This document shows, in pieces, positions 16,395 through 32,939 of a stretch of DNA of 64,000 bases. Source of the DNA: Dioszegia crocea (Eukaryota > Basidiomycota > Tremellomycetes > Tremellales > Bulleribasidiaceae); NCBI GenBank assembly GCA_001600615.1, contig BCKK01000008.1, forward strand, positions 1,198,534 to 1,262,533, written 5' to 3'. A model generated the notes under the pieces. It saw only the letters and a program-made list of their open reading frames with translations. It was not told where the DNA came from and searched no databases. The translations under genes were made by a program, and so were the position numbers. Each line of letters starts with the position of its first letter. The stretch's first letter is position 1.

Positions 16395-17740
16395 CTACCT
16401 TGCAGCTTCCTGCTCCATTGTCGCGTTCATGATCATTTTGGTGAGAACAACATCCTCTTTTCCGTCCGCAACAGTGGTTGGAAAGCTCCGGCTCTCCGTG
16501 ATAGCTGCGTACAATTCGATGAGGGCGAGGTTGTAAAAATCGATGTAGGTCGACCGGATGGTCTGTTCGGAGAACTCTTGTTGAGGCGTGGAGTGTTGGA
16601 TGGTCAACTTGATGGGGAGGGCGCGGATATACGGGCTACAGAGTTAGTTTTACTCCGACGAGCTCCTTACCTGTCGTAGGTGATCTTGATTCTTTTGGTA
16701 CCGGTGTACACCTCTATATGGGCATCAAACAGGCCCACATCGTCCACGCCCATCTGAGGCGTCAGCTGGGGTCTCTACGGCATCCGCTCACTGACCTCGT
16801 ACAGCGCATTGAAGGTCCCATAGTCAAGTACCACCTGCCACCAATTCGGACGATCTCTTTCGCCATGTCTTGACGCCGACAGCACACGTCTGGGCATCCC
16901 GATTGCCTCCCGCATAGCAGAGAGAGCGTGCGAGCTGAAAGCGGTCAAGATTTGCCAGGAACCAGCATTCGACTCGTTTCCTAGCGCGGTCGGACCAAAA
17001 TTCTCGATGAGATTGGAAGAGATCCGAGACTTCAGGTCCTGGGCAGCTTCGACTGGATAGTCGCTGTACATCTTTTGATACATGCCGGTTTGAGGGGTAA
17101 AGTGTCGATTCTGCATACAGTCAGCTCTAGACTCCAGTCTCGAGAGAAGGTGACTCACATCACCAATAATGTCTCGTACTCGGACGTATTTGATATCCTG
17201 TCCAGCAATTTCCTCCTTGAAGCGCTTGAAGGCCAGAGCGTAACGACGCATGAAGCCAATGAAGATGACGACGTCACTGCGTACACGGGCAGCCTCAACT
17301 GCATCGGCCTCCGCCTCGGTCTGAACCATGGGCTTCTCCAGCATGACGTGCTTCCCAGCGTCAGCACAGGCGATAGCCTGCTCCGCGTGGTACTGGTCGG
17401 CCGAGCAGATGAAGACGAGATCGACGGGGATGTGAGACTCAAAGAGATCCGCACTTCACGCTTCAGCAGAATTCACTGCGAGGCGAGTACTATAGCGCTC
17501 ATGACGACTCACAGAGAGGTAAAGGTCGGACCAATGCCGAACCTGGCACTACAATGCTCGAGTGTCTGCGCCGAAATGTCCACCAATGCACTGATCTTGA
17601 ACATATGAGATGCAACGATTAGGTTGGGTATCTACTTATCAGTCTTGGTTCAGGGAACAGCGCAGAGGAGATCTCACATGGGTGACTTGCGCAATCTCAC
17701 CGCACCCAACGACAGCGACGTTCAAAACCTTCTGCGCCAT
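16395..17740 (-). CDS. GFO/IDH/MocA-family NAD(P)-dependent oxidoreductase
   Basis: Six exons from MAQKVLNVAVVGCGEIAQVT at 17740 to TAG at 16395. The N-terminal Rossmann fold shows GCGEIAQ as dinucleotide loop, LVFICSADQYHAEQAIACAD and the family signature GKHVMLEKPMVQT, whose Glu-Lys-Pro holds the catalytic lysine. The C-terminal alpha/beta domain follows (FIGFMRRYALAFKRFKEEIA; NLIENFGPTALGNESNAGSW; WWQVVLDYGTFNALYE; IRSTYIDFYNLALIELYAAI). Such enzymes oxidise or reduce sugars, inositols and sugar acids; the substrate is not readable. It stands alone between accessory regions. A 14-bp palindrome lies 125 nt upstream of the start. Confidence 0.92.
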
Positions 17741-22913: not shown

Positions 22914-23709
22914 TTACGCCCAAGCTTGGGTGTTACTATGGGTATCAGCATCAAGTCACAGAAGCATCACTGAAGGTGAAGAAGTCCGTAGATTTGGTAT
23001 GGAGAAGTAGGATGAAAGGGCGTAAAGAAAGCCACTCACGAGTAATTGATAATCAAATGCCCTTCGGTCCCATAGCATTTATACAAATTGGCCACTACGT
23101 CATCCGGAGCGGGCGTAAATGCGGCATTGACATATGTGAACTAACCAGTCAGCTGACAGACACTCTTATTGGACAGGGATTTTCGTCAGAGTCAGCTTAC
23201 TAGTGGATCACCCTCTTTACTCCCCAATTGACCACGGAGGAACGTCACTACCGTCGCGTACTTATTACCCGCGGTGACTTTGAAGACATTGTTTTTCATT
23301 ATAGGTGCGGCACCTATGGATTTGAAGCGGACGACCACTAGGATGATCAGCCCATATTCTGATATCGCTGAAAGCTAGAAAGCTCGGAACGCCAGAATGA
23401 GCTGAAAAGACCAGACCTACCCTTTGACATGTCTTTCTGCTTATAATGCTCTAACGCGGCTATAGCATTGGGTCGAATGATGAGTGATGCAGCGATAGAT
23501 GGGCCTTATGTCTGATCAGCTGCCAATTCCTGCAGATGTCGCCACCTCCGGGGAGAGGTCAGTGCTTCAGTCGGGTCGAGCACGGCCTTTCTCTTCTACA
23601 TCGCTGAGAACCGGCTGTTTATCGGTCGCAAGGTCTTAGACTCACCTGGAGCTAACCCATCTGGTAATGCTGGAGATGTGACGTCCGGTATAGGGTTCGA
23701 GAGAGACAT
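22914..23709 (-). CDS. ATG12: Ubiquitin-like autophagy protein Atg12, ending in Ala instead of Gly
   Basis: Five exons (23646-23709, 23421-23504, 23201-23337, 23040-23140, 22914-22935) give 135 residues. After a short variable N-terminus the ubiquitin-like fold is unmistakable: [80 protein letters not shown], then YSNTQAWA and stop TAA. Atg12 is normally joined through its C-terminal Gly (family ending ..AWG) to a lysine of Atg5 by Atg7 and Atg10; the conjugate promotes Atg8 lipidation on the phagophore. Here the last codon is GCG (Ala). A GTAAGC donor-like sequence overlaps the stop; if used, the residue after Trp is still Ala. Divergent from the membrane protein at 23935. Confidence 0.9.
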
Positions 23710-23934
23710 GATGTAGATGTATGATGGGTGTAGTGAAGGCAAGCGAGCGACAAAGGGGCATCTGTGTGGTGACGTGACGAAGGTCCCGGGGGACTTTGCC
23801 GGTAACTGGCTGATACCGGCTGGATCAGCAGGCTATATCCTCGACTTATCATCTACATCTATTCTTCCTCGACATTGTCGTCTCCAAGCACTGATCAGCG
23901 CACTCGAAACAGACCTCCTGATCTACTGGCTATC

Positions 23935-25198
23935 ATGTCTGATCCTGCCGATTCAGAATCCAAGAAATTGGGCAATGAGCCATTGTTCGGAGCTACACCC
24001 CCACCAACGGAAACATCCACCTCTGCCTTGCCCGCCGAATCCTCTCCAGAAGATGCCGCACCAAAGGACCCATCGCCAGAGACCGCCAATCCGCTTTTTG
24101 GTGCAACTCCACCTGTGGACTTTGCGATCGAGGCAGGGGCAAAGGAAAGAATCGAGCAAGGGTCTAGAGAACGGGTTGAGTCGCTCCGACGTGCGAGAGC
24201 TGCAGAACTGGGTAGGACATCACAAGTATGTTGCCAGTGACAGTAGAAAGATCAGTATTGAAGGGTTTTGCTGATACCTCTAGTCTCCGGCACCCCCACC
24301 ATTTTCGCGTCTAACCAGTGCACCCAAGCCGGCCCCATCCCAACGCCCATCCACCCTCGTCCCTTATCTCCGCCGACTGAGCTTTGTGCTCTCCCTCTTA
24401 CTTGGAGCTGGCGCTTCTATCGCGCTAGTCTGGTCGGCTTTCCTCCTCCCTCGCTTACACGCGAGCTTCTCGGCACGGCGAGCGCTGGTGGATCAACAAG
24501 TGGAACGGACGGAAAGTTTCCTCGGGCGATTGAGGGCTGTGAGGGCTATGGGGATGCATGCGGGGTATAAGCGGGAGATACTGCCCTCGGAGTCGGCGAA
24601 TCTGGCTGAGAAGGAGAAGGGTAAAGCGCCGCAAGAGGAACGTGTAGCAGAGAAGGGGAAAGGGCGTGCTGTTGCAGGGGAGGATGAATCAAAGGCTATG
24701 ATAAGGGAATTATCATCCTCCGCCCATTCCTCAAATACATCACAAAACGGAGACGATTCATATGACTCAATTACTGCCGCTCCACCTCTTATACCCGACC
24801 TAGAACCCTTGCTCATATCCCTAAAATCACTCTCATCGACCCGCGGCAATACATCCACAACCCGTACTTCCCTCTTGTCCACTATTGAATCTTACACTTC
24901 GGCTCTACATCGTCAATTATGGAATCCCCGTCCTGGAGCTGGATTCGGAGTAGGGGCCGGAGGGAATAAAGGGTGGGGAACGGGGTATGGGCTTAATACG
25001 CTCGATCAGAATTTGAGGAATGCTTCGGGCGGCGGCGGCGGCGGTAGTGCGTCGAGTGGTGGTGCGGGTGTGTATAAAGATGGGTGGGAGGGTGAAGGAT
25101 TGAGCGATAGGTCTGAAGAGTGGGATAAAGTCCGGAAAGAGGTTAGGGGGATTAAGGGGATGTTGTTGGGGAGGAGAAGTATGGGTATGGGAGCGTAG
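23935..25198 (+). CDS. Single-pass membrane protein, possibly a Pex14/Pex17-like peroxin
   Basis: Two exons (23935-24225, 24284-25198; intron with GTATGT donor and GCTGATACCTCTAG end) give 401 residues. The N-terminus has two copies of PLFGATPP within about 35 residues, then an Arg/Glu helix (ERIEQGSRERVESLRRARA) and a Pro-rich stretch. One membrane helix follows (SFVLSLLLGAGASIALVWSA), then FLLPRLHASFSARRALVDQQ, VERTESFLGRLRAVRAMG, a charged and Ser-rich middle, Gly-rich runs and EWDKVRKEVRGIKGMLLGRR. The helix followed by LPRL and a coiled region recalls Pex14/Pex17-type peroxisomal docking proteins, but the conserved Pex14 N-terminal domain is absent, so this is only a suggestion. It shares a 225-nt promoter with ATG12. 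Confidence 0.6.
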
Positions 25199-27856: not shown

Positions 27857-29375
27857 ATGACAACTAACGACACCATGTCCCTACGCAAAATCTCGGACAA
27901 TCTACGGCCGGGTCCAAATTCGCCACCATACACCACAACTTACCTCGGCCCGAGACCGCAGACAGTGAACAACCTGAACGGCGCGAGCTTTCAACAAGAC
28001 GCAATTGTCACGTACAAGGGTGAGCCTGATAGAGACAAGAGCTGATCGTAGGGTGGCAATATGTAGTCATATATCTAGACGCGAATCTTGGTGTCCGACA
28101 CGTCCACCTCCTCCGCAGGGAGCTTCCCTCGGGGTCATGGCAGGCTATCGAATTTTTGGACTACCAGCAGACCTTTGATGACGGTCACAATGTATGCTGT
28201 ATTGGAATCTCACCCTCAGACGGCCGGATCCACATAGCTTGGGATCTGCATAATTCGGAATTCAATTATCGGATCTCTAAACCGGGTCTTGCGGATGCTC
28301 CTGCGGCAGCGTCATGGGTGGCACAGGAGTTCGGCGAGGTGCAGCACGGCCTTTCCGGAGTCAGCAGCGAGTCTTTGACAGGGGTGAGTAATCATCCAAG
28401 CAGATGCTGATACAGGTGACATACCCACGATTCTTACGGCTAGGACCTGGGTATGGCGGGAGATTGCTGCTGGAGCTGCGGACGGGAATGGCAGGGCTGG
28501 GAGACTGTCGACTCTTCTTCTATGAGAAGGAAGAATGCTGGAGAGATGCTGGCATATATCTGAAAGGCATCGAGAACAATCCGTAAGTCCGATCCACACC
28601 ATCTGCTGATCATCAGTTACATTAACGGACTTGATCTAGACGCAAGTGGATCACTCCATGTATCTTGGTGCTACAGAGGATACGTCTACATCTCGCCGGA
28701 ACAGCTTCAGCAAGCCGCACAGCAAGCAGGCCCGAACGGTCCATCGAATAATTATGATCTTCATTATGCCTACTCGCCGGCAGAGGATGGCGTCCCTGGT
28801 CAAAAGTGGTACAGTCGGAGCGGCGCTTTAATAGGTTCTACTCCTGGTGGAGTATATCCGATCGAAGGAGTTGAGGGGACTCGTGTATTTGCCATTCCGA
28901 AAGATACCGGTATCATCAACCAGGAAGCGCAGTGCGTCGATCATAATGGGTTAATGCATGTATTGAACCGAGAGAATTCTGAGGGACGAGCTACCTGGTG
29001 AGTCGAGTTGCGGACTTGGCTGATGTTCAGGTTTCATTACACCATCAGTCCGACTCAACCATCATCAAAGCGCCGTCTCGGACATCGTCCTGAATCAGCG
29101 ACATCTCCTCGTGGGAAAATCCTCTACTACGCCGATCGGCTGCTGGCAGTCTTACCGGTCGGGGCGGACATTATGGTAATTGACTTGGATACTGGCGAGG
29201 AGTCGGTACGAATCAATGGTGCGGGAGCTAGCGGCCAAGAGGTGCTGCACGATGTGAGTTTTCGTCTGGTCGTTCTGACACCCAGAGATACCGCAAAGAC
29301 AAGCTTTCGCTGTTCGTCTGCCATGAGGGGCATTTGGCTGTGGTTGATGTGGAAAGCAGTCTTCTGCGGTGCTAG
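27857..29375 (+). CDS. BNR_4 beta-propeller protein, candidate PL42-type rhamnose-glucuronate lyase
   Basis: Six exons (27857-28019, 28052-28383, 28416-28582, 28617-28997, 29031-29253, 29286-29375) give 451 residues. The repeats match the BNR_4 seven-bladed propeller: NLNGASFQQDAIVTYKGWQY, FDDGHNVCCIGISPSDGRIH followed by IAWDLHNSEFNYRISKPG, SSESLTGVTYPRFLRLGPGY, DASGSLHVSWCYRG, NYDLHYAYSPAEDG, AQCVDHNGLMHVLNRENS, EVLHDRYRKDKLSLFVCHE. DGHN..I.....GRIH..WD.HN is the core with His residues used by rhamnose/ulvan-type lyases. Fungal members with known activity (PL42) cleave L-rhamnose-alpha-1,4-glucuronate caps of gum arabic side chains. No secretion signal is evident at this start, which is odd for a gum-cleaving enzyme; an intracellular oligosaccharide role is possible. 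Substrate is inferred. Confidence 0.75.
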
Positions 29376-29824: not shown

Positions 29825-30945
29825 ATGCCCTACACTCCGCTTGAGTCAGGCAAGAAGAGGGTGAGTCGCAGGTCCTGGCCCTTGCTGATGTCAGGTCATC
29901 TTGGGCTTGATGACATTTGGGCCTGACAAGGAGGCCGGCGCGAGAATCACAGACCTCTCAGAGTTCAAATCCGTCCTCGACGACTTCCAATCCCTCGGCT
30001 ACGGCGAAGTTGACACTGCTTACAGCTACGTCGCTGGCAAGCAGCAGGCATTCACTCGTGAGGCGGGCTGGAAGGAGAGGGGTTTGAGGATTGCCACCAA
30101 ATACTACCCCAACCCCGAGACAGGTGGTCATGACGCTACAAACATCCGTAAACGATGCGACGAGAATCTTGAGCGGCTCGGTACCGACTCGACCGACATC
30201 TTCTACCTCCACGCTGCCGACCGCAACACCAACTTTGCGGAGACTCTCGAGGAGTGTAACAATCTCTACAAGGAGGGCAAGTTCAAGCAGTTGGGCGTGA
30301 GCAACTTTGCTTCTTACGAGGTGGCGGAGGCGGTCATCCTGTGCAATGAGAGGGGATGGGTTAGGCCAACCATCTATCAAGGGATGTACAACGCAATCAG
30401 TAAGTCTATCTTAGTCCAAGCTAAATCCAGCTCGCAACCTAGACATCGAGACCATCACGGCCTGCCACCGCTACGGCCTCGACGTCGTTGTTTACAACCC
30501 CCTTGCCGGTGGTCTCTTCTCCGGGAAGATCAAATCCAAGGATCAAGAGCCCGCCGATGATGGCTCTCGCTTCTCCGCCAAGTCAGCCACTGGCACGAAT
30601 TACCGGAAGCGATACTTCCGTGACTCCACCTTTGACGCCTTGGCGATGGTCGAGAAGGTGGCAGAGAAGACCAATCTCACCCTCCTCGAAATCGCTTTGA
30701 GGTGGGTGATGCACCACTCTGCGTTGAACGTGAAGGACGACGGAGGGGATGGGATCATCATTGGTGTCAGCAGCAGGGCCCAGCTAGAGAGTAACTTGAA
30801 GGATCTGGAGAAGGGACCGTTGCCGGAGGAGGTGCTCAAGGTGTTGGACGAGGCGTGGCTCGTTACCAAAGCGCAGAGCCCTCCCTATTGGCATGGAGAG
30901 CTCAAGTATGGGTACGACACCCAGAAGGCCTTGTTTGGCAAATAG
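29825..30945 (+). CDS. Aldo/keto reductase, AKR7 (aflatoxin-aldehyde reductase) type
   Basis: Three exons (29825-29860, 29895-30399, 30443-30945) give 347 residues. The TIM-barrel signatures are VILGLMTFGPDKEAGARI, GYGEVDTAYSYVAGKQQAF (catalytic Asp and Tyr), IATKYYPNPETGGH (catalytic Lys), DIFYLHAADRNTNFAETLEE (His), KFKQLGVSNFASYEVAEAVI, YQGMYNAINIETITACHRYG, VYNPLAGGLFSGKI and GIIIGVSSRAQLESNLK. The family reduces aldehydes and dicarbonyls with NADPH in the cytosol. It follows the PL42-like gene by 450 nt and precedes an aldehyde dehydrogenase, so a joint role in handling aldehydes from sugar breakdown is plausible. The spacer 29376-29824 holds no other gene that I can see. Confidence 0.94.
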
Positions 30946-31149: not shown

Positions 31150-32939
31150 ATGTTTCGTCCATTTCGCTCCAAGCTTGTCCATCACTCCCCTGGACATTGG
31201 CGAGGTGGATCTTGTGTGGCTCTTGGGCTAGCTCGCCAGATGTCGATTGATACCAAATCGACCCACGCCCATCTCCAAGTCCCTCATCTGGGACGAGTGG
31301 AATTGCCCACAGGCATCTTCATGTAGGTCATGACTTTTAATCTGAGCTGACCTCCAGCGACAACGAATGGCGCGCGTCGTCCACTGGTATCACCTTCACC
31401 ACTGTCAATCCTGCTACCGGTGCTACTCTGTTGGACATCGCCCACGCGTCAGAGGAGGATGTCAACACAGCCGTCAAATCTGCTCGTCGGGCTTTTAAGA
31501 CGACTTGGGGTAACAATGTTCAGGCGTCTGAGCGTGGAGCCGCTCTGATGAGGCTGGCAGATGTAATGGAGAGGGACAAAGGAAGGCTGGCAGCGGTAGA
31601 GAGTCTGAATACTGGGAAGGGGATTCGAATGGCTAGGTGAGCGCTACCCCTTCTCTGCTGATAGTCAGAGATTCGGATGTTGGTGACTCTATCGCTTGCC
31701 TGCGATACTACGCCGGTCTAGCGGATAAGTCTCACGGTCAAACAATACCACACTTTGGACAGGAGAAGTTCGTCTATACGATACATCAACCAATTGGCGT
31801 TTGCGGTCAAATGTGAGTTTCTTACTGGCTATAGCTAACGTCCAGTATACCGTGGAACTATCCCCTTCTTATGTGGGCCTGGAAAGTCGCTCCTGCTCTT
31901 GCAGCTGGCTGCTGCGTCATCATGAAGCCCTCCGAACTCACCCCTCTTACCGCTCTTATGCTGTGCGACCTAGCCAAAGAAGCCGGAATTCCCTCGGGCG
32001 TCATTTCCACTCTTCCGGGTCTAGGCGGAACAACTGGCCAAGCCATTGCTCGACATACAGACATCGACAAGATTGCATTCACCGGATCGGTCGCAACTGG
32101 GCGCAAGATCAGCATAGCTGCCGCTGAGAGCAATCTCAAAAAAGTGACATTGGAGCTAGGCGGGAAGAGCCCGATAGTCATCTTCGACTCTGCAGATGTG
32201 GAGGAGGCAGCAGACTGGGCGGCAATGGGGATATGGTTCAACTCGGGGCAGGACTGCTGTGCGGGCAGTAGGGTGTACGTCCAGGAGAGCGTGTACGAGG
32301 AATTCTTGGCGGCTCTGAGGACGAGGGCGGAATCTACGGCTATCGGACAGGTGAGCTATCGTCATGATCCTAGCTGACTTTCAGCCCTCCGATGACAAAA
32401 CCTCATTCGGTCCTCTTATCTCTGCTGGGCAAAGGGACAAGGTCATGGCGTATATCCAGTCTGGCGTAGAGGAAGGCGCGAGGGTGGTCACGGGCGGGAA
32501 GCGCTGGGCAAATTCTGGAGGGGGATTCTGGGTCGAGCCTACGATCCTGGCGGATGTGAACGACGAGATGACTTGCGTCAAGGAGGAGGTACGTCAAGCA
32601 ACCTAGAGCTGGCTGATTCTTCAGATCTTTGGCCCAGTCATCGCTGTGTCCGCTTTCTCTGCCGAATCAGAAGCGATTGAACGCTCAAATTCGACCATCT
32701 ATGGCCTCGCCGCTGCTGTCTTCACCCGCGACACTCAGCAAGCTATGCGTGTCTCTGCAGCTTTGGACGCTGGGACAGTGTGGGTCAATCAGTACGCTCT
32801 TACCCATCACGGCGTACCATTTGGAGGATTCAAACAGAGCGGGATTGGAAGGGAGCTAGGGACGTATGGACTCGAGGCTTATTGTCAAGTCAAGGCCGTG
32901 CATCATAATCTCTCGCAGAAGGTGGAGTGGCCATTGTAG
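31150..32939 (+). CDS. Aldehyde dehydrogenase
   Basis: Six exons (31150-31322, 31358-31636, 31669-31812, 31846-32350, 32385-32588, 32625-32939) give 539 residues. NAD(P)-dependent oxidation of an aldehyde to its acid. Seen: [72 protein letters not shown] (general-base Glu), [18 protein letters not shown] (the second Cys of QDCC is the expected nucleophile), [15 protein letters not shown] and [15 protein letters not shown]. The N-terminal 55 residues ([32 protein letters not shown]) are basic and could be a mitochondrial leader; the inner Met before SIDTK is an alternative cytosolic start. If the upstream cluster degrades L-rhamnose, this would fit a lactaldehyde dehydrogenase (LRA5 role); that is inference. 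Confidence 0.95.

Follow-up and report, generated by a model that had tools for sequence, protein, structure and literature searches.

The window, by which we mean the whole 64,000-nucleotide stretch of Dioszegia crocea DNA analyzed here, carries ATG12 on its minus strand as five exons (positions 23709-22914) separated by four introns, each of which begins with GT and ends with AG (Table 1). The coding sequence is 408 nt long and predicts a protein of 135 amino acids with the C-terminal sequence NYSNTQAWA; the final exon has TGG at codon 134 (22922-22920) and TAA as its stop (22916-22914). Residues 49 to 134 match the APG12 model PF04110 (2e-27; 95.8 bits versus a cut-off of 22.8), and solved ATG12 chains match as far as the penultimate Trp (1wz3, 6.4e-22; 4gdk, 1.6e-15). 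The spliced model and the PF04110 match bear out a preliminary description of the locus, which had given a five-exon Atg12 ending in TQAWA, with GCG as the last codon before TAA. Upstream of ATG12, open frames run in the opposite direction (23806-25198, plus strand), starting about 225 bases from the ATG12 start; the largest of them (24284-25195, plus strand) contains a hydrophobic stretch and has no Pfam match.

Table 1. ATG12 exons, the C-terminal codon, and neighboring family matches, in window coordinates
Feature	Position	Strand	Remarks
ATG12 exon 1	23646..23709	(-)	start codon 23709-23707
ATG12 exon 2	23421..23504	(-)	
ATG12 exon 3	23201..23337	(-)	first part of ubiquitin-like domain; PF04110
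ATG12 exon 4	23040..23140	(-)	second part of ubiquitin-like domain; PF04110
ATG12 exon 5	22914..22935	(-)	(S)NTQAWA + stop
ATG12 codon 135, GCG = Ala	22917..22919	(-)	Gly in 36/39 homologues with readable AW-x end
Exon-sized piece, GFO_IDH_MocA oxidoreductase family	16778-17455	(-)	family match; ordinary neighbor
Exon-sized piece, BNR_4 family	28564-28998	(+)	family match; ordinary neighbor
Exon-sized piece, aldo/keto reductase family	29889-30557	(+)	family match; ordinary neighbor
Exon-sized piece, aldehyde dehydrogenase family	31835-32374	(+)	family match; ordinary neighbor

A PF04110 profile search of the genome (20.57 Mb, 17 contigs) revealed no second ATG12 copy with a C-terminal Gly: the only matches were to the ATG12 locus itself, as two exon pieces, and we reject a second copy on that basis. 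We also reject an alternative last exon reached through the donor GTAAGC at 22917, which overlaps the stop; as the preliminary description had correctly noted, this donor retains the first two bases of codon 135, GC, and Ala would be encoded whatever follows. Nor does ATG12 appear to be decaying, since its product shares 91% identity with Dioszegia hungarica Atg12 along the entire length. The latter is the nearest protein found (100% covered) and also ends NTQAWA; because it comes from a separate record, an error in a single assembly is unlikely. By these checks on assembly and homologues, the C-terminal Ala is real. A structure prediction for D. hungarica Atg12 (single chain, 31-row alignment) yielded an unusable model, with a mean pLDDT of 43.2 and a pTM of 0.29.

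Among 73 listed homologues, 39 have a readable AW-x end; the remaining 34 were dropped as fragments or as reading into introns, and these include the sole row named C. neoformans. The last residue of the 39 is Gly in 36, Ala in 2 (D. hungarica, P0001, and Kwoniella shivajii, P0010), and Leu in 1 (Kwoniella sp. DSM 27419, P0012), in keeping with the earlier statement that the family ends AWG. By their names, the 39 rows comprise 14 Tremellomycetes, 19 other named basidiomycetes, and 6 unnamed sources. Alignment of Atg12 C termini from related Tremellomycetes had been proposed as a check on the Ala: D. hungarica shares the AWA end, and Gly was found in 11/14 Tremellomycetes (the others being 2 Ala and 1 Leu), 19/19 other named basidiomycetes, and 6/6 unnamed rows. 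All exceptions belong to Kwoniella or Dioszegia; thus, the non-Gly ends observed in these 39 readable rows are confined to Tremellomycetes. The two Kwoniella sequences are predicted proteins (AWA in P0010, AWL in P0012), and their ends possibly represent separate losses of Gly, or wrong last exons. Cryptococcus neoformans belongs to the same fungal class as Dioszegia; its Atg12 (P0025) has an N-terminal extension, and its C terminus (NYRCGRTPSSHLSMC) resembles a read-through intron, which prevents comparison of the true end.

When we compared Atg12 at 37 columns that are invariant in 38 other homologues, we found four departures besides the C terminus, all of them mild (F76Y, I99V, F118Y, and V126I); three of the four are common to D. 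hungarica. Changes at conserved Atg12 positions are therefore not confined to the bond. Residue 118, encoded in exon 4, is Tyr here and Phe both in the 38 other compared homologues and in D. hungarica.

Atg5 is encoded on the minus strand of contig C1, at about 2467.8-2469.1 kb, where the genome has its sole match to PF04106 and to PF20637; spliced by hand, the protein is 361 amino acids long and has matches to each of the three Atg5 Pfam domains. In the HMMER alignment, human ATG5 reads fmscmKead where D. crocea reads fmnqlRead, so that the acceptor Lys is replaced by Arg. The position is that of human K130, the ATG12 acceptor, and its codon in the one D. crocea assembly is AGG. Lys occupies this position in 120/120 listed Atg5 homologues (120 of 143 matches were listed), among which there was no Dioszegia Atg5. 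At columns that were ≥85% occupied, compared with the other 120 homologues, D. crocea Atg5 departs at 1 of 34 columns that are ≥97% conserved and at 1 of 10 that are strictly invariant: in both cases this is the acceptor Lys. The Arg sits inside a well-aligned exon, away from splice sites. Both Kwoniella species with a non-Gly Atg12 keep the Atg5 acceptor Lys (P0084 and P0085), which fits loss of Gly before loss of Lys; the listed C. neoformans Atg5 (P0083) also keeps it. In mammals, ATG5 K130R is the standard nonconjugatable laboratory mutant and is unstable in cells (PMC6796855); it has also been called conjugation defective and is described as not binding ATG12 (PMC3868163).

The preliminary description had further proposed a genome search for ATG10, ATG7, ATG3, and the Atg5 acceptor; besides the Arg, this search found Atg7 and Atg3 and detected no Atg10. 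PF03987, which covers both Atg3 and Atg10, matched only a single gene on contig C2, in two exon pieces, when the whole genome was searched at E up to 10, and that gene is Atg3. Protein queries (a basidiomycete-like Atg10 sequence and Hypsizygus Atg10) gave no match in a search that included no fungal positive-control genome. The Atg10 active-site pattern W-[YF]-x-H-P-C, whose spacing was drawn from basidiomycete Atg10 rows (yeast Atg10 is one residue longer there), matched the genome once, in a stop-filled frame. PF03987 itself is matched by 31/31 rows of our Atg10 alignment, yeast included. Agaricomycetes have an ordinary Atg10: a protein search gave 231 matches at E up to 10, of which the best 120 all carry PF03987, and the named Atg10 matches among these best 120 of 231 are, judging by their names, all from Agaricomycetes. 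Leishmania ATG10 is reported to be distant and only weakly similar, yet functional (PMC10104450), and a divergent Atg10 could thus be missed here. Judged from these searches, Atg10 is likely absent from this genome, although a divergent, intron-split gene could escape them.

The rest of the conjugation machinery appears to be in place. The Atg3 gene has an HPC motif (HPCKHASVMKK) and a DIPDMDDIPDM stretch, as expected of Atg3; Asp-Met is given as the ATG12-interacting motif of ATG3 (PMC11764061). Atg8 is present and retains its conjugating Gly: the frame of its last exon reads ENTFG and then LLEEVQE. An Atg16 model matches contig C2 at 49.5 bits (cut-off, 33.7), with a second piece adjoining; this coiled-coil model also gives sub-cut-off matches in 10/14 prokaryote controls and another near-cut-off match on C1, so Atg16 is only probably present. 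Atg12, Atg5, Atg7, Atg3, and Atg8 are all kept, and this is the set of the ATG10-less, non-covalent type.

Taken together, the Ala at the end of Atg12, the Arg at the Atg5 acceptor, and the failure to detect Atg10 make canonical conjugation look lost. We think it likely that D. crocea has abandoned the covalent Atg12-Atg5 bond and that a non-covalent complex, whose binding we infer, does the work. The preliminary description had argued that without Gly there is no joining to Atg5; as far as canonical conjugation goes the sequences support this, and it is the non-covalent association that stays at the level of inference. A functional Atg12 would use its ubiquitin-like surface to dock on Atg5, with no isopeptide bond between them; Atg16 would tether the pair, and the complex would recruit Atg3-Atg8 via the Asp-Met motif region of Atg3, leading to Atg8 lipidation; this scheme is modeled on Apicomplexa and Komagataella. 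Since mammalian K130R is unstable and said not to bind ATG12, a non-covalent pair here would need a tighter interface.

A covalent bond might instead be made by another route, with Atg7 tolerating Ala, Atg3 or another E2 replacing Atg10, and a different Lys of Atg5 being used. Kwoniella and Cryptococcus have the acceptor Lys, and most of their rows also show the Gly, though C. neoformans has been reported to lack a detectable ATG10. One study proposes that ATG10 is replaced by other E2 enzymes (PMC7262457), and another mentions that a different group has claimed an Atg10 of very low similarity (PMC6988817); a hidden E2 may therefore exist in the class. For D. crocea we nevertheless regard such a route as improbable, because both bond-forming residues are replaced together in this genome and because the Lys-to-Arg change blocks conjugation in mammalian ATG5 (PMC6796855).

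We consider it quite improbable that the Atg12 branch is being lost, with Atg12 and Atg5 having ceased to cooperate and Atg8 lipidation proceeding in the absence of an Atg12-Atg5 E3. Piroplasms offer a precedent, for they lack ATG12-system genes and still have ATG8 conjugation (PMC11764061). Piroplasms, however, have lost the Asp-Met stretch, whereas D. crocea keeps it in Atg3 and has an Atg16 match as well; moreover, the full-length identity to D. hungarica Atg12 and the retention of 33/34 highly conserved columns in Atg5 speak against such a loss. Finally, although the Atg5 change is read from one assembly, it is very unlikely that sequencing, assembly, or gene-model error hides a true Atg12 ending in Gly and a true Atg5 with Lys, because D. 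hungarica has the same Ala in a separate record, the sole nearby alternative donor also yields Ala, and the Atg5 Arg lies within a well-aligned exon with no splice site there.

A more far-reaching proposal, which we hold with evenly balanced confidence, is that D. crocea is a natural triple null for the Atg12-Atg5 bond, having lost the donor Gly, the acceptor Lys, and the E2; Tremellomycetes would then be dismantling the bond stepwise. The E2 would have been lost or become unrecognizable first, then Gly more than once (in Dioszegia and two Kwoniella), and here Lys too. An early loss of Atg10 in Tremellomycetes sits oddly with the presence of the Atg5 Lys in every listed relative and of the Atg12 Gly in 11/14. 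Two explanations suggest themselves: most of the class still has a working but unrecognized E2, the bond having been dropped in Dioszegia, or the two residues have a second role. Were the stepwise proposal true, an unknown E2 in Cryptococcus and Kwoniella, or such a second role for both residues, would be needed to explain why most relatives with no recognized Atg10 still have Gly and Lys. D. crocea would be a fungus that has erased both ends of a ubiquitin-like bond, and would carry nature's copy of the laboratory Atg5 Lys-to-Arg change. Relatives with both residues, or with Lys alone, would make the order of bond loss testable, and the case bears on why most eukaryotes retain a covalent link that some do without.

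Our literature search, which was thin on subscription journals, found nothing on Dioszegia Atg12 or on Gly loss in Tremellomycetes, and no natural Lys-to-Arg change at the Atg5 acceptor. The preliminary description had presented the locus as what would be an independent case in a basidiomycete. Two studies found no ATG10 in C. neoformans, and one of them suggests a non-covalent complex (PMC6988817 and PMC7262457); two Kwoniella proteins also lack the Gly. Given the published lack of a detectable ATG10 and the Kwoniella ends, Dioszegia is not the first basidiomycete hint of this kind. D. crocea resembles C. neoformans in that ATG10 is undetected and a non-covalent complex has been suggested for the latter by one paper, and differs from it in having Arg where the listed C. 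neoformans Atg5 has Lys.

The non-covalent ATG12-ATG5 complex is established in Apicomplexa and Komagataella phaffii (Pang et al. 2019, as cited in PMC11764061, PMC8161075, PMC12005411, and PMC6652269), and according to PMC11764061, which cites other work, the covalent link was lost at least 16 times across 94 eukaryotes. The preliminary description had invoked a switch to non-covalent association with loss of Gly in these groups; the non-covalent complexes are documented, but for Komagataella PMC6652269 says that the complex is non-covalent and has no need of the C-terminal glycine, which does not confirm a loss of Gly. As in Apicomplexa and Komagataella, ATG10 is not found in D. crocea, ATG12 is unable to use the normal bond, and ATG5, ATG7, ATG3, and ATG8 are kept. 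D. crocea differs from them in being a basidiomycete, in that the acceptor Lys of Atg5, a residue we did not find discussed for the known cases, is also replaced, and in that the non-covalent binding is proposed from sequence.

Among charophytes, ATG10 is undetected in both Chara braunii, whose ATG12 lacks a C-terminal Gly, and Nitella mirabilis, in which Gly is kept (PMC6652269); the Chara pair is probably non-covalent. D. crocea shares with them the undetected ATG10 and the same apparent order of loss, although charophytes belong to the plant lineage. Compared with the covalent system of yeast and mammals, D. crocea has the same Atg12 and Atg5 families by sequence, together with Atg7, Atg3, Atg8, and a probable Atg16, but the donor Gly and acceptor Lys are replaced and Atg10 is undetected. 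The kind is thus already known from Apicomplexa, Komagataella, and probably Chara, and has been raised for C. neoformans; D. crocea would be an unusually complete case of it.
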